From the NCBI RefSeq assembly GCF_029433105.1, contig NZ_JARNTW010000001.1, positions 744,001 to 808,000 of the forward strand: a stretch of DNA of 64,000 nt. Reading direction: 5' to 3'. The DNA comes from Runella sp. MFBS21. Lineage in GTDB: Bacteria; Bacteroidota; Bacteroidia; Cytophagales; Spirosomataceae. The notes beneath the pieces were generated by a model. The model was not told the DNA's origin and did no database searches. It saw only the letters and a program-made list of their open reading frames with translations. Positions 3,735-33,703 of the stretch are shown here, in pieces; the first letter of the stretch is position 1, and every line of letters starts with the position of its first letter. The position numbers and the translations under genes are program-made.

Positions 3735-4023
3735 GATGATGAAAAAGAAAGGGCGTATTTTGTTTGGCTTGTGCTTTCAGAAAATGTGATTTTTTGGGAA
3801 TAGAATACGTAAGAATGAAATTGACAATCACCGGTGAACTTGATGGGCGGCTAAAGTTCTTTATGGTAATGGGCCTGATGTGTACATCGGCTCATTTTTT
3901 TGGGAGAAGGGAAAAGTTGAATTTCAGACTGGAGGTGACCATTACGAATATAAATTGTGGGTAAGATTCGAGCCTTTGGATTGTAAAAAAGGGCATTTAA
4001 CTATCAAAACAAAAATAATGTAA
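3735..4023 (+). pseudogene. decayed small gene with two frame shifts (family not recognised)
   Basis: Three consecutive short stretches in three different frames each read like protein. 3735-3804 gives DDEKERAYFVWLVLSENVIF and ends at a stop. 3803-3850 contains EYVRMKLTITGELDG. 3844-4023 gives AAKVLYGNGPDVYIGSFFW, then a charged and aromatic stretch that ends ...LDCKKGHLTIKTKIM at a TAA. Chained together they form one plausible protein of about 95 residues broken by two indels. An alternative is that only the last 59-codon frame is real and lacks a usable start. I do not recognise the family. A separate short frame beginning at the ATG at 3737 (MMKKKGRILFGLCF) looks like a signal-peptide start but stops after 17 codons. 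Confidence 0.35.
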
Positions 4024-4145
4024 TTAACCACAATCCATAAATAAAAACATGCAGCAAAACGCCGTGTTTATAGGTGGTTTGTGGTTAAAATAAATACTAC
4101 TTCATACAATTTAAAAGTATAATAGCTTGAGAAACTCAAAATGAC

Positions 4146-4472
4146 TTAAAGATTACTATCTATAAATTCGCGTAATTGTTTCAGTGGAAGTGTGCCTACC
4201 TTGGTGGCAGTTAGTATACCCTTTTTGAAAATGATGAGGGTAGGAACATCTTTCACATTATAATTTGTGGGCATTTTTGTGTTCTGGTCAATATAGAATT
4301 TGGCTACTCTTAGTCTACCAGCATACTCAATCCCTATCAACTCTACTATGGGGTGTATTATCTCAAGGGGACCAGCCCACACTGCCCAGAAAAATACCAG
4401 CACAGGTGTTTGACTGCGAAGTACGTCATTCTCAAAAGACGCATCTGTAACTTGAACAACTATATTTTTCAT
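4146..4472 (-). CDS. thioredoxin-fold protein lacking the CxxC active site
   Basis: About 108 residues from the ATG at 4472 (an ATG at 4490 adds six). The protein aligns along its length with classical thioredoxin: VLVFFWAVWAGPLEIIHPIVE, KFYIDQN, and the cis-proline loop VKDVPTLIIFKKG followed by the terminal helix. In place of WCGPC it has WAGPL: the codons are GCT (Ala) and CTT (Leu), so both redox cysteines are gone. The rest of the fold is well preserved and the frame is intact. It cannot act as a dithiol oxidoreductase. A binding or structural role, or a gene drifting after loss of function, are both possible. There is no operon partner. Confidence 0.8.
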   Translation of the reverse strand: MKNIVVQVTDASFENDVLRSQTPVLVFFWAVWAGPLEIIHPIVELIGIEYAGRLRVAKFYIDQNTKMPTNYNVKDVPTLIIFKKGILTATKVGTLPLKQLREFIDSNL

Positions 4473-4490
4473 ACTTATTTGCTTGAACAT

Positions 4491-4943
4491 AACGCTTCGT
4501 CTTAGCTGTGGTTGTGCGTATTTGTTTCTTAATCGGAGAGTGTTCAGATAAATCTCCTAAAGTAGAAGGGCACGAGCGGATGCTTGTGCCCAAACTACCA
4601 TTATTTAGGGTAAAGTAGGCATTTCTTTATGTTAAAGATTGATAGAAGTTTGCTATTAATATGTTCAAATCTATAGAATAGCTTTTTGTGCGGGTAGTAA
4701 TAGTCGGCTAAGTGTATTTTATAAGGAGTTTTAGTCATTATGATGAGGTCTTATAATAGGGAAATTACTCCAAATAAAATTGCTTAATAAAAACCCTGTT
4801 AGGAGGTGTTACAAAGATGAAACAAACAGGTATAATCGACATTTCTATTCGTCCCAAATTCATTTCGATTGGTTGCATACCACAATAAAACAGCTTTTAG
4901 GCAGTAGATGAATTAACTAAAACCCTGTTTTGTGTATTGATAA
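4491..4943. other. gene-free stretch with one strong hairpin
   Basis: No convincing coding frame on either strand. A 10-bp hairpin at 4568-4591 (GGGCACGAGC, loop GGAT, GCTTGTGCCC, one G-T pair) is the only clear structure. It has no U-run on either side and lies upstream of the thioredoxin-like gene. A 23-codon frame at 4818-4889 follows an AGGAGGTG sequence but has no support as a gene. Confidence 0.5.
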
Positions 4944-27504: not shown

Positions 27505-30500
27505 CTACAGCATTTCTACTTTCATCACATTATCATCCGAAATGCGGTCGATGAGTTTGTTGTAGGGATCGATGCCGCCTTTGAGGGGCTTGCCTTTTAC
27601 CACCAACTCAATCGTGTGCTTGCCTGGACTGAGTTTGTGTTTTTGGAGGTAGAGCGGCACTTTTTGCTTCATGCCTAGCTTGTTTTTAGACTCCTCCGTA
27701 AATACCCCAATGTCGATGTAGTTCGGGGTTTTTCCCTGCGCAATTTCTTTGCCCGTTTTGTCAAAATACAGCTTTTTGGTCTCTACTGTCAGCTTTATTT
27801 TATACTGGTCGCCTTTCAGTGGCGTCGCTTCTACGGCCGTTACTTTGTTTTCGTACAAGGTGATTTTCTTGATACAATCCTCCACAAAATACTTGAGCGA
27901 ATCAGGCGTTTGGGTGTAAATACTGTTGTACCATTCGTCGGTCGTCGTAAAAGGCGCTTTCTGGCGGAAGGCCGTCCGTTCGGCGTAGTCTTTCAGCCAC
28001 GTATTGAGGCGCTGCTCGCCCACCATGTCTTGCAGGGCATAAAACGTCAACGTGCCTTTTCCGTACCAAATGTACGCCCCACTCTCGTTGTCCATCAGCG
28101 GCTGTTCGCCTTTGTTTTCTGTACCACGACCGCGCAAATACTGGTCGAGGGCGTATTTGAGGCGCTCCTGCATCACGTCGCGGCCGTAAGTGTGGTGTAG
28201 CACCATGTGCGAGCTGTACTCGGCCAATGCCTCGGCGATGTTGTTGGCTCCCCGCGTGAAGCTCGGCATCACTTGGTGCCCCCACCATTGGTGTGCTACC
28301 TCGTGGGCCGTTATGTAATACGCATAATCGGTTTTGTTGGGGTCTGAGAAATCGGCCAAAAACCCAAAGTTTTCCGAATACATAATGGTATTAGGGAACG
28401 ACTGCGCAAAGGTCTGATAACGAGGAAACTCCAAAATACGCATCTGTCGGAACTGGTACGGGCGAAAATTGGACGAACAGTAGCGCAAGGCGTCTTTCAA
28501 CCCATTCATAAAGTGGGAAATGTTTTTATTATGCGTAGGATGGTGAAAAATCTCCACTTTAATATCCTGTCCATCAGAGTTTTTAACCGTTTCGCGGTGG
28601 ACGGCATAACGCGCCGACGCGACGTTGAAAAACAAATCCATGAACTCGTTTTGTTGGTAATGGAAGTACTTACGACCATTTTGCGTCCATTCCTTTTGCA
28701 GATACCCAGGCATAATCGCGATTTGGTCGGGTTCGGTACTGACCGTGCCTTCAAACGTTACCCAGTCGCCTTCTTGGGTAAACAAGAAATTCTGTAATCC
28801 CGTGGAGTCGGTGCGTTTGGGCATGTCAAATTCCCGAATCGGCAGTTTATACTTTTTCCGATACCGCTCCGACGAAAGTTCGGCGGACTGACTGTATCCG
28901 ATGCTCGGGAATAAATCGCCTTGGTTCACAAAAGTACCATTGTCCGTAATCGTAAACTGCTCTTCTCCCCCATTGCGAAAGCCTCTAAACTCACCATGCG
29001 ACGCGATTTCAAGCACCGCCGAGTCGTTGGGCATCAGCTTTTTAGGCAATTGATAAATATAAAAACGTTGAATCGTATCGTTCAACAATTTCTTAGGCTC
29101 TACTCCGTCGATTTTTAGACTCATTCGGTAATGCGGGAAACCGCCTCCCACGTTCAAAATCAGCGAATCCAACGGGCGGTTATGCTTATTTTTTATCACA
29201 AATCGACCACGGGCATCTATCATTCGTTTTTTAGGGAATAAATCTACCTCTACCTTCACCGACGTTACTTTAGGCTGGGGTTTAAGGTAAAATTTACGGT
29301 ATTTTTCTTCGTACTCCGCACTTCGTTTGCGGCCTTCTTCGGCGGTACGGTACTTGTTCAATACACTTTGGTTGTAATAAATAAAGCCCGCTGAACCTAG
29401 CCACACAAGGGTAAAAACCGACAGCAACGCCCCCGTAGCAGGGGTAAAACGCTGCATGGCCAAACGCCAACGATTTTTGAAATTGGTTTCGGTACCGCGC
29501 GACCAAAACAGGTTGCCAATCACCAAAAAGACTGCCGCCAATCCGCCCCAACACAACAAATACCACATCGTATTTTCGGTAAACCCAAACCCGTTCATGT
29601 CTGAATACGTCGAAGTAGGAACGGCGTTGAAATATAGCAACATGTATTTGTATTCAGAAAAAGCCCGCGTGCCGTACAATACCGCCCAAAAAGCAATGTT
29701 GACCACGTGCCCCGTCATTTTGTTGTTGACCAACGTATGAATCAAAAACGTAATCATGGTCAGGAACGTCCACTGCAAAATAGGCACTACGTAGCCTTGC
29801 AGGTACAGCGCCAAGTTGTAATCGAAGTATCCTTTGATGGTCTGCCAGATAACGCCGCACAAAATCCCCACGACAGGAATGAACAGCATCACCCCAATCA
29901 TGGCCAAAAACTTGGAGCCATACACCAACCAGTTGGGCAACGGTAAAGCATCGCCAATGAGGTGAAAATTGACCGTTCGGTCGCGGTGAACGACTTCGCC
30001 CGTAATGAAAATAATGAGGATAATTACTACAAAATAAAATGTACTGTCTTTCGACTCCAACATAAGGTAAGTGGTAGGAAGCGAATCGGTTCCGTACATC
30101 ATTCCTGCGTATTGATTGTCTAAAAACAAGAACAACGCCGCCGCTAACAAAATAGCAATAAAGAAGGGATCACGAACGATGTTCCGAAACTCCACTTTGG
30201 CCATGCTGAGCATTTGTCTCAAATAACGACCCGTGGTGTAGGCTTTTTCGGCCACGGGCAAATCAGCCAATGAGCGAGGAGCTGCCACTTTTTCAGTCTT
30301 CTTTTTGGAGATTTTTTGAGATTTTGGGGCAATGAAGCGTTGAAAATCAAAGCGAAACAACAAAAACAAAAGTGGAGCAAGCCCTACCCCTATCCACAAC
30401 AAACGGTTCCATAAGAAATTACCCTCCAGAGGAAAAAAGCGGGTATTTTGTTCCGTAACTGTCCAGTAACGCGTCAAATCGTCGAGCGCTCCCAACGCAA

Positions 30501-31149
30501 ATGGGTCGAGAATAGCGGCCAGCGACTTGTTGTCCAAATCGGCCATCAACGAAGAGGCGACCAAGTAGGTCACCAATAAAACCACCCCACCCGCATAGGT
30601 GACAAACACGCGTTTTGTCAAGGCCACCAAGCTAAAAAAGAGGCTTCCCGCAAAGAATAAATTGGGAACCCCTACGACCAAGTAAGGCCACAGGTAGTTG
30701 AGCAGGTTGTAAGGACCAATACGCTCGGCATTATCGCCAACTTCGAACGTTTTTCCAATGATACAACCGACCAAATGTCCTACAATCATTCCTGAACCAA
30801 TAAACAACAGCGTCAGAAATGACCCCATAAAACGCCCCATGAGGTACCCTTTTTCGGAAATGGGATAGCTGAAATAATAATTTTGGGTTTTGTGCTCAAT
30901 GTCGCGATAGACGGGTACGCCCATCACTGCTGTAGCAAGCATGATGCCGAAAACACTCATCACGGCAATGAAAACTCCCGCCATAGCAGGACCGTTGATG
31001 AATACTTTTTCGGACGAACCGCCACTGATGCTCACCGAACCAAACAGTGCCAACACTAACGAAAATAGAAACATCACCGCCCAATAGCCCCAAGTAGCAG
31101 GTCGCTTAAAGCGGTATTTTAGTTCAAAAGAAAGTATGGTTGAAAACAT
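27505..31149 (-). CDS. ABC transporter permease fused to an M1-family zinc aminopeptidase
   Basis: A 1214-residue fusion. Residues about 1-600 are an ABC-2 type permease: two blocks of hydrophobic segments (for example FSLVLALFGSVSI, FFIAILLAAALFLFLDN and VVIILIIFITGEVV). Residues about 640-1214 form an M1-like peptidase with the zinc motif HEVAHQWWGHQ (H949, H953) and the downstream Glu in NIAEALAEYSSHM. Similar permease-M1 proteins are known in Bacteroidota next to an ABC ATPase; the transported substrate is unknown. The ATPase gene (32822-33703) lies on the same strand 1.67 kb upstream, separated by palindromic repeats and a GIY-YIG gene. Confidence 0.92.
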   Translation of the reverse strand: MFSTILSFELKYRFKRPATWGYWAVMFLFSLVLALFGSVSISGGSSEKVFINGPAMAGVFIAVMSVFGIMLATAVMGVPVYRDIEHKTQNYYFSYPISEKGYLMGRFMGSFLTLLFIGSGMIVGHLVGCIIGKTFEVGDNAERIGPYNLLNYLWPYLVVGVPNLFFAGSLFFSLVALTKRVFVTYAGGVVLLVTYLVASSLMADLDNKSLAAILDPFALGALDDLTRYWTVTEQNTRFFPLEGNFLWNRLLWIGVGLAPLLFLLFRFDFQRFIAPKSQKISKKKTEKVAAPRSLADLPVAEKAYTTGRYLRQMLSMAKVEFRNIVRDPFFIAILLAAALFLFLDNQYAGMMYGTDSLPTTYLMLESKDSTFYFVVIILIIFITGEVVHRDRTVNFHLIGDALPLPNWLVYGSKFLAMIGVMLFIPVVGILCGVIWQTIKGYFDYNLALYLQGYVVPILQWTFLTMITFLIHTLVNNKMTGHVVNIAFWAVLYGTRAFSEYKYMLLYFNAVPTSTYSDMNGFGFTENTMWYLLCWGGLAAVFLVIGNLFWSRGTETNFKNRWRLAMQRFTPATGALLSVFTLVWLGSAGFIYYNQSVLNKYRTAEEGRKRSAEYEEKYRKFYLKPQPKVTSVKVEVDLFPKKRMIDARGRFVIKNKHNRPLDSLILNVGGGFPHYRMSLKIDGVEPKKLLNDTIQRFYIYQLPKKLMPNDSAVLEIASHGEFRGFRNGGEEQFTITDNGTFVNQGDLFPSIGYSQSAELSSERYRKKYKLPIREFDMPKRTDSTGLQNFLFTQEGDWVTFEGTVSTEPDQIAIMPGYLQKEWTQNGRKYFHYQQNEFMDLFFNVASARYAVHRETVKNSDGQDIKVEIFHHPTHNKNISHFMNGLKDALRYCSSNFRPYQFRQMRILEFPRYQTFAQSFPNTIMYSENFGFLADFSDPNKTDYAYYITAHEVAHQWWGHQVMPSFTRGANNIAEALAEYSSHMVLHHTYGRDVMQERLKYALDQYLRGRGTENKGEQPLMDNESGAYIWYGKGTLTFYALQDMVGEQRLNTWLKDYAERTAFRQKAPFTTTDEWYNSIYTQTPDSLKYFVEDCIKKITLYENKVTAVEATPLKGDQYKIKLTVETKKLYFDKTGKEIAQGKTPNYIDIGVFTEESKNKLGMKQKVPLYLQKHKLSPGKHTIELVVKGKPLKGGIDPYNKLIDRISDDNVMKVEML

Positions 31150-31224: not shown

Positions 31225-31308
31225 TTGTCACCCCGACGATAGGAGGGGTCTATATCCTTGCAATGATAATTCGCCGCTTTAGATTCCTCCTCCGTCGGAA
31301 TGACAAAA
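31225..31308. repeat. palindromic repeat unit 1
   Basis: An approximately 85-base imperfect palindrome. Left arm TTGTCACCCCGACGATAGGAGG and right arm CCTCCTCCGTCGGAATGACAA are near-complementary; the spacer contains TCCTTGCAATGATAATTCG. It is the first of eight full copies in 31225-32774. Degenerate partial arms (TTTGTCACCCCCGGC on the left, CTACATTGGAATGAC on the right) flank it. Confidence 0.85.
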
Positions 31309-31363
31309 AGCCTACATTGGAATGACAGAAAACGCCTACACTTTTGTTACCCCATTTTCTCCC

Positions 31364-31447
31364 TTGTCACCCCGACGATAGGAGGGGTCTGCATCCTTGC
31401 ACGCGCAATTCGCCGCTTTAGATTCCTCCTACATCGGAATGACAAAA
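31364..31447. repeat. palindromic repeat unit 2
   Basis: Same arm design as unit 1, with CCTCCTACATCGGAATGAC as the right arm. The spacer carries TTGCACGCGCAATTCG, the variant also found in units 7 and 8. Extra right-arm copies (CCTACGTCGGAATGAC) follow. Confidence 0.85.
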
Positions 31448-31529
31448 AGCCTACGTCGGAATGACAAAAAAGCCTACGTCAGAATGATAGAAAACGCCTA
31501 CACTTTTTTTTATTACCCTATTTTCTCCC

Positions 31530-31613
31530 TTGTCACCCCGACGAAGGAGGGGTCTGCATCCTTGCAATGATAATTCGCCGCTTTAGATTCCTCCTCCGTC
31601 GGAATGACAAAAA
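31530..31613. repeat. palindromic repeat unit 3
   Basis: Left arm TTGTCACCCCGACGAAGGAGG and right arm CCTCCTCCGTCGGAATGAC pair almost fully. Spacer as in unit 1. Confidence 0.85.
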
Positions 31614-31667
31614 GCCTACATTGGAATGACAGAAAACGCCTACACTTTTGTTACCCCATTTTCTCCC

Positions 31668-31752
31668 TTGTCACCCCGACGATAGGAGGGGTCTGCATCC
31701 TTGCAATGATAATTCGCCGCTTTAGATTCCTGCTCCGTCGGAATGACAAAAA
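31668..31752. repeat. palindromic repeat unit 4
   Basis: Left arm as unit 1; right arm CCTGCTCCGTCGGAATGAC has one change. Two further right-arm tails lie between it and the GIY-YIG gene; the last one ends 5 bases before the gene's stop codon. Confidence 0.85.
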
Positions 31753-31803
31753 AGCCTACGTCGGAATGACAAAAAGCCTACGTCGGAATGACAAATGGTT
31801 TCA

Positions 31804-32097
31804 TTAGTCTTGAATATCATCGTTTAAAAATTTCCATTCAGGATTAAACTCATTGATAAGTGCTTCTTTCTTTGATCTTCGCCAACCCTTTATTTCCTTC
31901 TCACGTTCGATAGCGTTGTAAACGTATTTGTGATGCTCCCAGTAAAGGAGATAGAAGCAATTGTACTTTGCAGTAAATCCACTTACTCCTTGCTTATGCT
32001 CGCTTAACCTACGCACCAAATCATTTGTAACGCCAACATAAAGAACCGTCTTATTATAGTTTGTTAAAATGTACACGTAATATGAATGCTCTCTCAT
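31804..32097 (-). CDS. GIY-YIG nuclease family protein embedded in palindromic repeats
   Basis: A 97-residue single-domain GIY-YIG endonuclease. The GIY and YIG strands read YYVYILTN and VLYVGVTN; the catalytic Arg follows in DLVRRLSEHKQG, and the catalytic Glu is in AIEREKEIKGWRRSKKEALI. These match the short UvrC-like proteins common in Bacteroidota. It is enclosed by four palindromic units on one side and a half unit plus four units on the other, and sits between the two genes of an ABC operon. Its role is unknown; a nuclease that acts on the repeats is a hypothesis from position only. Confidence 0.9.
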   Translation of the reverse strand: MREHSYYVYILTNYNKTVLYVGVTNDLVRRLSEHKQGVSGFTAKYNCFYLLYWEHHKYVYNAIEREKEIKGWRRSKKEALINEFNPEWKFLNDDIQD

Positions 32098-32125
32098 GAT
32101 TTATAAAATGCAAAAGGTGATAAGG

Positions 32126-32156
32126 ATTTAGATTCCTCCTCCGTCGGAATGACAAG
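32126..32156. repeat. half palindromic unit (right arm only), next to the GIY-YIG gene
   Basis: ATTTAGATTCCTCCTCCGTC continuing GGAATGACAA corresponds to the spacer end and right arm of the full units. No left arm is present; the sequence that should hold it is replaced by the GIY-YIG gene and its upstream region. Confidence 0.75.
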
Positions 32157-32228
32157 AGACTTTCGTCGAAATGAAAAAAGGTTTCCCTAAAATGACGAAC
32201 CATTGCCTTTTTTGTCACTCACCTTTCT

Positions 32229-32313
32229 TTTGTCACCCCGACGAAGGAGGGGGCTGCATCCTTGCACACGCAATTCGCGGATTTAGATTCCTCCTTCGTC
32301 GGAATGACAAAAA
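32229..32313. repeat. palindromic repeat unit 5
   Basis: Left arm TTTGTCACCCCGACGAAGGAG; right arm CCTCCTTCGTCGGAATGAC. Spacer TTGCACACGCAATTCGCGG. Preceded by a degenerate arm (TTTGTCACTCACCTTTC). Confidence 0.85.
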
Positions 32314-32383
32314 ACTTTCATCGAAATGACAAAAGGTTTCCCTAAAATGACGAACCACTGCCTTTTTTGTCACCCACCTTTCT

Positions 32384-32467
32384 TTTGTCACCCCGAGGAA
32401 GGAGGGGGCTACGTCCTTGCACGCGCAATTCGCGGATTTAGATTCCTCCTCCGTCGGAATGACAAAA
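32384..32467. repeat. palindromic repeat unit 6
   Basis: Left arm TTTGTCACCCCGAGGAAGGAG; right arm CCTCCTCCGTCGGAATGAC. Spacer holds TTGCACGCGCAATTCGCGG, which can form a small inner hairpin. Confidence 0.85.
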
Positions 32468-32537
32468 GGGTTGCGTCGGAATGAAAAAAGCTTCATCAGA
32501 AGAACAAAGAACTTTCTTTTGTCGCCCTGACATTTCC

Positions 32538-32631
32538 TTTGTCACCCCGACGAGGGAGGGGTCTGCGTCCTTGCACGCGCAATTCGCGGATTCAGATTCC
32601 TCCTCCGTCGGAATGACAAAAGGGTTTCGTT
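32538..32631. repeat. palindromic repeat unit 7
   Basis: Left arm TTTGTCACCCCGACGAGGGAG; right arm CCTCCTCCGTCGGAATGAC. The spacer is TTGCACGCGCAATTCGCGG, as in unit 6. It is followed by a near-identical flank shared with unit 6 (AAAGCTTCATCAGAAGAACA), so units 6 and 7 share flanking sequence too. Confidence 0.85.
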
Positions 32632-32691
32632 GGAATGAAAAAAGCTTCATCAGAAGAACAAAGAACTTTCTTTTGTCGCCCTGACATTTCT

Positions 32692-32774
32692 TTTGTCACC
32701 CCGAGGAAGGAGGGGTCTGCGTCCTTGCACAGAATTCGACGATTTAGATTCCTCCTCCGTCGGAATGACAAAAA
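32692..32774. repeat. palindromic repeat unit 8
   Basis: Left arm TTTGTCACCCCGAGGAAGGAG; right arm CCTCCTCCGTCGGAATGAC. A shortened spacer (TTGCACAGAATTCGACG). Degenerate arms extend the palindrome outward on both sides, and the last one ends directly at the stop codon of the ABC ATPase gene. Confidence 0.85.
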
Positions 32775-32821: not shown

Positions 32822-33703
32822 CTACACTGCCAGTCCTTGTCGAACCGTGATTTCGGAGAAATACACATCTTCCAAATCAGGAGTAGTTGCTTCAAAACCT
32901 TCAAGTGACTCGTCGGCTATGACTCTGATTTGGGTTTTACCCATTTTCAGTGAAGTCGAAATCACTTGGTAATTTTCGCGATAGTTGTTCAGTTCGTGTT
33001 TTTCAATACTTTTCTTAAATACCTTACCCTCAAGCCCTTTTACCAATTCATTTGGATTGCCTTTGGCCACTACTTCGCCCAAACAAATGATAGCCATGTG
33101 AGAGCAAAGGTTGGTAACATCTTCCACAATGTGCGTTGAAAGAATCACAATCGTGTTTTCGCCAATTTCAGAAAGTAAGTTATGAAAACGATTGCGTTCG
33201 GCGGGGTCAAGACCCGCCGTCGGTTCATCAACAATGATGAGTTTGGGATTGCCAATAAGCGCCTGTGCAATACCAAAGCGCTGTTTCATCCCTCCCGAAT
33301 ACGTCCCCAAGTTTTTCTTACGGGCTTCGTAGAGGTTTACTTTTTGAAGAAGCGCCGTAACAATGTCCTTACGCTCACCACGATTCGAAATTCCTTTTAG
33401 GTCGGCGATGTGGTCAAGCATGGTTTCGGCACTGACGCGCGGATATACCCCAAACTCTTGCGGTAAGTAGCCTAGAATTTTACGTACCTCCTCTTTTTGG
33501 CGTAGTACATCCAAGTCATCGAGCGAAATACTACCGCTATCGGCCTCTTGAAGGGTGGCAATGGTGCGCATCAAGGAGCTTTTACCCGCGCCATTAGGAC
33601 CCAAAAGTCCAAACATCCCCTGCGGAATGGTAAGTGTAACATCTTTAAGGGCTTGTACGCCATTAGAATACGTCTTGGAAAGATTGGTAATGGTTAGCTG
33701 CAT
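32822..33703 (-). CDS. ABC transporter ATP-binding protein
   Basis: A 293-residue ABC ATPase. Walker A GPNGAGKSSLM, Q-loop region GYLPQEFGVYP, signature TYSGGMKQRFGIAQAL, Walker B LIIVDEPTAGLDPAERN and the switch His in VILSTHIVED are all present. The C-terminal 80 residues are the variable domain seen in ABC-2 type exporters. It is expected to pair with the permease-M1 fusion gene 1.67 kb downstream on the same strand; the two are separated by repeats and the GIY-YIG gene. The repeats begin within about 50 bases of the stop. Confidence 0.95.
   Translation of the reverse strand: MQLTITNLSKTYSNGVQALKDVTLTIPQGMFGLLGPNGAGKSSLMRTIATLQEADSGSISLDDLDVLRQKEEVRKILGYLPQEFGVYPRVSAETMLDHIADLKGISNRGERKDIVTALLQKVNLYEARKKNLGTYSGGMKQRFGIAQALIGNPKLIIVDEPTAGLDPAERNRFHNLLSEIGENTIVILSTHIVEDVTNLCSHMAIICLGEVVAKGNPNELVKGLEGKVFKKSIEKHELNNYRENYQVISTSLKMGKTQIRVIADESLEGFEATTPDLEDVYFSEITVRQGLAV

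Follow-up and report, generated by a model that had tools for sequence, protein, structure and literature searches.

A small GIY-YIG nuclease encoded in Runella sp. MFBS21 is probably a REP-associated enzyme whose cognate targets are the palindromes clustered around its gene, with cleavage and host repair together multiplying the palindromic units. The locus lies within the window, i.e., the whole 64,000-nucleotide stretch analyzed here from a genome of 7.9 Mb (Table 1).

Table 1. Features of the palindrome cluster and of the genes that flank it in the window
Feature	Position	Strand	Start of repeat D1 copy	Evidence
Permease/M1-peptidase gene, 1214 aa, downstream flank of cluster	27505..31149	-		PF01433, 2.3e-09
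Palindromic unit 1, two inverted half-unit hairpins	31227..31304	.	31242	Repeat family D1, half-unit motif, folding
Palindromic unit 2	31366..31443	.	31381	Repeat family D1, half-unit motif, folding
Palindromic unit 3	31532..31608	.	31546	Repeat family D1, half-unit motif, folding
Palindromic unit 4, first downstream of nuclease gene	31670..31747	.	31685	Repeat family D1, half-unit motif, folding
GIY-YIG nuclease gene, 97 aa, intact	31804..32097	-		PF01541, 4.7e-17
Orphan half-unit GTC-ATTCC...GGAAT-CT, same direction as gene	32130..32153	-		Sequence, half-unit motif
Palindromic unit 5, left half imperfect and missed by exact motif	32232..32308	.	32246	Repeat family D1, folding
Palindromic unit 6, left half imperfect and missed by exact motif	32387..32463	.	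32401	Repeat family D1, folding
Palindromic unit 7	32541..32617	.	32555	Repeat family D1, half-unit motif, folding
Palindromic unit 8	32695..32769	.	32707	Repeat family D1, half-unit motif, folding
ABC ATPase gene, upstream flank of cluster	32822..33703	-		PF00005, 2.4e-30

Direct reading of the window sequence confirmed what had been claimed from the sequence alone, i.e., eight palindromic units around a 97-residue GIY-YIG gene, in a cluster that splits an ABC ATPase gene from its permease-M1 partner, all three genes being on the minus strand. The permease part of the 1214-aa protein gave a weak match only (PF12730, below cut-off). The palindromes themselves stand, but their tag-to-tag span is 75 to 78 bp, rather than the approximately 85 bp first claimed, once the flanking T/A runs are excluded. 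The suggestion that the gene occupies the place of a unit's left half is a fair description, the orphan half having no partner on the gene side. This half starts 56 bp before the nuclease start codon; the distance from the start of a REP hairpin to the annotated gene start is about 49 bp in three rhizobial homologs. Besides the eight copies of repeat family D1, the cluster contains 22-bp partial repeats. Genome-wide, the palindrome arm had 12 matches with up to three mismatches, 10 of them in the window cluster (control, 0), and a 14-base tag allowing one mismatch had 29 matches at 6 places (control, 2). Contig C12 of genome G000 carries seven palindromic units in tandem with no GIY-YIG gene among them (locus L155, approximately 3770 to 4620); this array lies between two genes, one resembling by eye a dienelactone hydrolase and the other an RND-type efflux pump.

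Each unit in the window consists of two inverted half-units of the form GTC-X5-GA...-rc(X5)-CT, each with a stem of its own (ACCCC/GGGGT in one, ATTCC/GGAAT in the other). Folded as single-stranded DNA, all eight units scored better than the mean of their own shuffles (z, -3.3 to -7.2). In a covariation test that left the three inner stem positions free, the stem triplets were fully complementary at 266 of 326 sites (shuffled partners: mean, 43; maximum, 61) and comprised 14 distinct paired triplets. The two halves carried different stems in 63 of 94 tag-out dimers, each half being paired within itself. Since stems covary and the differing stems of a dimer pair within their own halves, this pattern argues for the half-unit, rather than the whole dimer, as the hairpin that would be recognized.

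The same motif, searched with X5 free, accompanies the gene well beyond the window. At the best 80 of 545 relatives found, flanks included, half-unit density reached 4.65 and 5.45 per kb in the two 100-bp bins closest to the gene and fell more than 50-fold, to 0.08 to 0.09 per kb, at 2 to 8 kb; the forward sequences of this set yielded 348 half-unit matches, compared with 4 when reversed. With a relaxed form of the motif added, a half lay within 300 bp of the gene at 71 of these 80 loci, compared with 5 of the 129 windows taken 4 kb away as controls, and halves stood on both sides at 55 of the 80. Nine loci had no half within 300 bp by either the strict or the relaxed form (L074, L075, L076, L078, L103, L105, L106, L109, and L117). 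Judged by the nearest halves, the gene is directly inside one tag-out dimer at 20 of the best 80 loci; the others lie between dimers (12), are mixed (23) or one-sided (16), or have no halves (9). Stem types follow protein similarity across 58 loci (Mantel r, 0.28; 0 of 2000 permutations).

The association is largely specific to one kind of GIY-YIG gene. Among 30 GIY-YIG matches in 59 related genomes, halves were nearby for all 14 that scored at least 76.7 bits, the window included, and for none of the 16 weaker ones, a result that depends on the motif used: with a general hairpin instead of the exact motif, two of the 16 weaker genes have a REP-like hairpin close by, and two more show A/T-rich matches of doubtful meaning. 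The former two (L145 in G006 and L150 in G008) belong to a distant second GIY-YIG type, and their hairpin GTCATCCCGAA...TTCGGGAT lies, by eye, in a partial tRNA-like sequence; this gene type is perhaps a different element targeting a tRNA gene. In a tree of 139 rows with few columns and rough support, the repeat-associated rows fall in one part of 119 rows (87/91), and 14 of the 16 repeat-less rows fall outside it, L136 and L149 being inside. The Neisseria row shares this part with the window (87/91), although with few columns and two repeat-less rows inside. Palindrome-rich genomes picked for lacking a close nuclease carried another GIY-YIG gene in 18 of 19 cases, mostly long UvrC-like frames. 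At 30 such other-GIY-YIG loci, the general hairpin found no half-unit within 300 bp except for an A/T-rich match at L308, and L325 was the sole locus of the 30 with exact halves (four), located farther than 300 bp away.

The protein itself has the predicted fold and the conserved residues of a GIY-YIG nuclease. Residues Y20, G22, R30, E66, and N85, which we take to be the catalytic GIY-YIG residues, are invariant in 40 aligned rows. The AlphaFold model of the 97-aa protein has a mean pLDDT of 92.4, and its closest PDB structures by Foldseek are UPF0213 BH0048, followed by Slx1 and UvrC N-terminal domains (E-values of 0.0016 and weaker). GIY-YIG and T5orf172 are its only Pfam matches, and NCBIfam gave none. 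Pfam and fold both point to GIY-YIG, and neither an HUH motif nor a catalytic tyrosine transposase domain is present. An Rfam search returned four matches, every one below the gathering score, and PADLOC returned three, weak and partial. Phage records contained no relative of the nuclease at 1e-8. Viral contigs contained 35, of which 19 were examined: the general hairpin occurred within 300 bp in 4 of the 10 closest relatives but in none of the 9 distant ones.

Nuclease and palindromes also co-occur at the genome level. Across 296 genomes of the class, with the nuclease called at E up to 1e-24 and palindromes at 5 or more pattern matches, 53 genomes had both, 41 the nuclease only, 26 palindromes only, and 176 neither (p, 2.6e-14; odds ratio, 8.75, and 4.6 to 10 at other thresholds). 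The respective counts were 33, 23, 16, and 93 by genus and 26, 7, 11, and 28 by family, and contrasts within families ran 25 for and 3 against, with 2 ties. Fewer than 5 pattern matches occurred in 41 of the 94 nuclease genomes, which partly reflects a pattern limited to some of the stem types. The converse expectation, that each genome with the palindrome would carry this GIY-YIG family, failed: even at E up to 1e-20, 22 of the 79 palindrome-rich genomes among the 296 have no close nuclease. Therefore, the repeats can persist, and perhaps spread, in the absence of the nuclease, or outlive it. The analogy drawn in the sequence-only reading with REP sequences and their RAYT transposases thus survives in part, the palindromes being REP-like and the strict RAYT model being at odds with these 22 genomes. 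In genome G095, 220 pattern matches are present in the absence of a close nuclease, and several of the 59 closer relatives likewise have tens of matches without one. At the other end, genome G207 has 16 nuclease profile matches, one listed copy with a stop; on its contig C31 (locus L205), nuclease copies 79 to 94% alike at the DNA level lie within 10 kb, together with halves.

The repeats, in the window and beside nuclease homologs outside the Bacteroidota, resemble a described class, the CGTC-tagged REPs. In the survey by Di Nocera, De Gregorio, and Rocco (2013, PMC3733652), these REPs have a CGTC tag (TGTC in many), a stem of 8 to 9 bp that begins with AT, a loop of 4 to 5 bases, and an arrangement as inverted dimers. 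They are described there in five phyla, Bacteroidetes included, and form large clusters in Neisseriae and Wolbachia; carriers named there include S. meliloti, A. lipoferum, N. aromaticivorans, and Neisseria, whose CGTC REPs are the dRS3 elements (PMC3733652). They are presented as apparently lacking a dedicated transposase (PMC3733652), and the term GIY-YIG has no occurrence in the text of that source. Measured against that description, the window halves read TTGTCA..., with GTC outside the stem as an unpaired tag, and form eight tag-out inverted dimers. The likeness is partial in that the ATTCC halves begin with AT and about half of the halves begin with AC, and the strict window stem of 5 bp with a longer loop differs from the 8- to 9-bp stem and 4- to 5-base loop given there.

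A plasmid collection contained 31 records with a nuclease relative, mostly from Alphaproteobacteria. At the 14 loci examined, the general hairpin matched 29 times in 8.4 kb near the gene versus 18 times in 42 kb farther away, an approximately 8-fold difference; the same loci reversed gave 14 matches in total. Canonical CGTC/TGTC REPs bracket the gene tag-out within about 120 bp on each side in 8 of 12 Proteobacterial homologs, a count that includes two orthologous Sphingobium loci. Canonical-type hairpins occur in other arrangements at two of the 12 loci (L285 and L294), and two have none of this kind (L288 and L292). Rhizobial loci have, for example, CGTCATCCTCGGGCTTGACCCGAGGATCC, and the Neisseria locus has CGTCATTCCCGCGCAGGCGGGAATC. 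Nuclease homologs thus stand among CGTC-type REPs in Azospirillum, Sinorhizobium, Novosphingobium, and Neisseria, the Neisseria homolog with dRS3-like repeats on both sides. On an Azospirillum lipoferum plasmid (L289, 1840 to 2500), sufB and sufC are separated by a GIY-YIG homolog that has one REP dimer on either side, an arrangement much like the ABC operon split by the window cluster. On a Planktothrix plasmid (L282), a homolog accompanied by 12 exact halves within 4.3 kb lies between an MmeI-type restriction gene and the DISARM gene drmA. Judging from these sequences, the gene-repeat association recurs across phyla, from Bacteroidota to Proteobacteria, with different repeat sequences, and the nuclease is a good candidate for the enzyme that CGTC REPs have appeared to lack. 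A literature search gave no GIY-YIG/REP link among the matches listed; one Moraxella carriage study contained both terms.

Some homologous copies of the gene begin or end at repeat tags. The clean case is genome G299, where two nuclease copies 26 kb apart are homologous over 479 and 441 bp, from one base before the left GTC tag to 11 bp past the right tag, with no further same-strand homology in the 2.3 to 2.4 kb compared and no target-site duplication seen by eye around either copy. Eight of the 12 copy pairs compared had no DNA homology. More broadly, we scored the homology ends of gene-spanning pairs that fell 25 to 400 bp from the gene, with duplicate places removed. Of 58 ends, 15 fell no more than 6 bp from a tag in each of the two copies (null mean, 0.67; maximum, 4; 500 draws), which come from 14 pairs at 18 loci and are thus not independent; 22 of the 58 were at a tag in at least one copy (null mean, 5.9; maximum, 13; 500 draws), and 36 were at no tag in either.

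The ABC gene is present in 12 of 13 genomes of the genus, which allowed the locus to be compared among relatives. The ABC-permease gap contains nuclease and halves in 3 of these 12 congeners, namely the window (1672 bp), G008 (959 bp), and G005 (598 bp), and lacks the gene in the other nine. It measures 21 to 77 bp in seven of them (G001, G010, G004, G003, G006, G009, and G002) and 479 bp in G011 (L170) and G012 (L167), where it holds a different small gene, presumably for a four-helix-bundle type protein. The ABC DNA of G001, G010, and G008 is 90.6 to 91.2% identical to that of the window. Gain and loss at this gap are indistinguishable, because the ABC tree, which covers 7 of the 12 genomes, leaves their order open. 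A second palindrome site (C20) offered gap sequences too diverged for comparison and no clean empty counterpart; G008 shares its dimer. Taken with the local density, the control windows, and the co-occurrence, the homology ends at tags bear out the initial idea that nuclease and palindromes belong together.

In the mechanism we favor, recognition would be of the half-unit, i.e., a GTC tag plus the short stem behind it. Most likely, this hairpin is nicked or cut by the nuclease while in single-stranded form, during replication, repair, or DNA uptake. Host repair would then copy, tandemly expand, or delete units, and the gene would sometimes be copied along with its flanking halves. In the window, such a unit may have landed in the ABC-permease gap, after which palindromes would have multiplied around the gene. 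We infer recognition and cleavage, on a single-strand substrate, from stem covariation and proximity, and repair-driven copying from copies whose homology starts or stops at tags and from the patchy presence of the gene. More tentatively, and with somewhat less belief than doubt, we suggest that the gene and its two flanking REP halves form a mobile element of minimal size (about 0.45 kb), for which we propose the name GIY-YIG "REPtron." Its inverted hairpin ends would be recognized by its own nuclease, and the gene-free dimers would be its non-autonomous offspring.

Homing could account for several of the same observations. In that case, palindrome spread would have some other cause, and the nuclease gene would invade gene-free dimers, the enzyme cutting in or beside the loop and repair from the gene-bearing copy inserting the gene. 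GIY-YIG domains are known in homing endonucleases, the association is one-sided (the nuclease is usually beside palindromes, and palindromes are often without a nuclease), and the gene sits within or between dimers; copies ending at tags would fit this scenario equally well. However, homing alone predicts no such excess of palindromes as nuclease genomes show over others of their family, in 25 contrasts versus 3, and we consider it unlikely. Of similarly low probability is use by the host, in which a domesticated single-strand nuclease would cut incoming or lagging-strand DNA at the repeats and thereby limit recombination or uptake, gene and repeats being clustered by coevolution rather than by movement. 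A Neisseria Ssn nuclease reportedly modulates transformation through such repeats, and the conserved residues are consistent with a host function, but the patchy presence at one locus among congeners, the several nuclease copies of some genomes, and the copies that begin or end at tags in different surroundings are hard to reconcile with it.

A passive hot spot, with palindrome gaps tolerating small insertions and the gene having no functional link to the repeats, appears highly improbable. The different small gene in the same ABC gap of G011 and G012 is what such a hot spot would produce; against it, the more distant GIY-YIG genes are mostly without repeats, and gene and repeats are found together in several phyla, with repeats of differing sequence. 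Chance pairing at a single locus was ruled out by the density, specificity, and control-window counts.

The REP-associated nuclease proposed here has affinities with known systems. A 2025 study in Nature Communications is said to describe Ssn proteins as GIY-YIG site-specific nucleases that cut single-stranded repeats, among them the NTS repeat in Neisseria, and to report an effect of the Neisseria enzyme on transformation via its repeats. As in that reported system, a small GIY-YIG protein goes with a repeated hairpin, the predicted catalytic residues of the window protein are intact, and the Neisseria homolog found here, which may be the published Ssn gene, is flanked by dRS3-like repeats. 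If this description of Ssn is right, the window protein is a new member of the Ssn family, and the initial impression that no system of this kind had been characterized is probably out of date. The tagged-end mobile unit and the split operon lie outside what is reported of Ssn; this unit and the explicit union with CGTC REPs may be the new parts. UPF0213-type GIY-YIG proteins and Slx1 share the predicted fold of the window protein, but the weaker GIY-YIG matches in related genomes, which may include UPF0213 members, are mostly without repeats. As with the RAYTs and REPINs in PMC3733652, a small enzyme gene is flanked by REP hairpins and the repeats are dispersed as inverted pairs. RAYTs differ in being HUH/tyrosine transposases that go with GTAG-tagged REPs, whereas the window combines a GIY-YIG protein with GTC-type tags.

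The tie between GIY-YIG nucleases and CGTC REPs makes testable both the cutting of a nuclease's own repeats and their spread by cutting. If the gene and its two halves do form a mobile element, the missing enzyme of CGTC REPs would be supplied. If the nuclease cuts its own repeats and this cutting spreads them, a REP-like population can be sustained by a nuclease that lacks strand-transfer chemistry.
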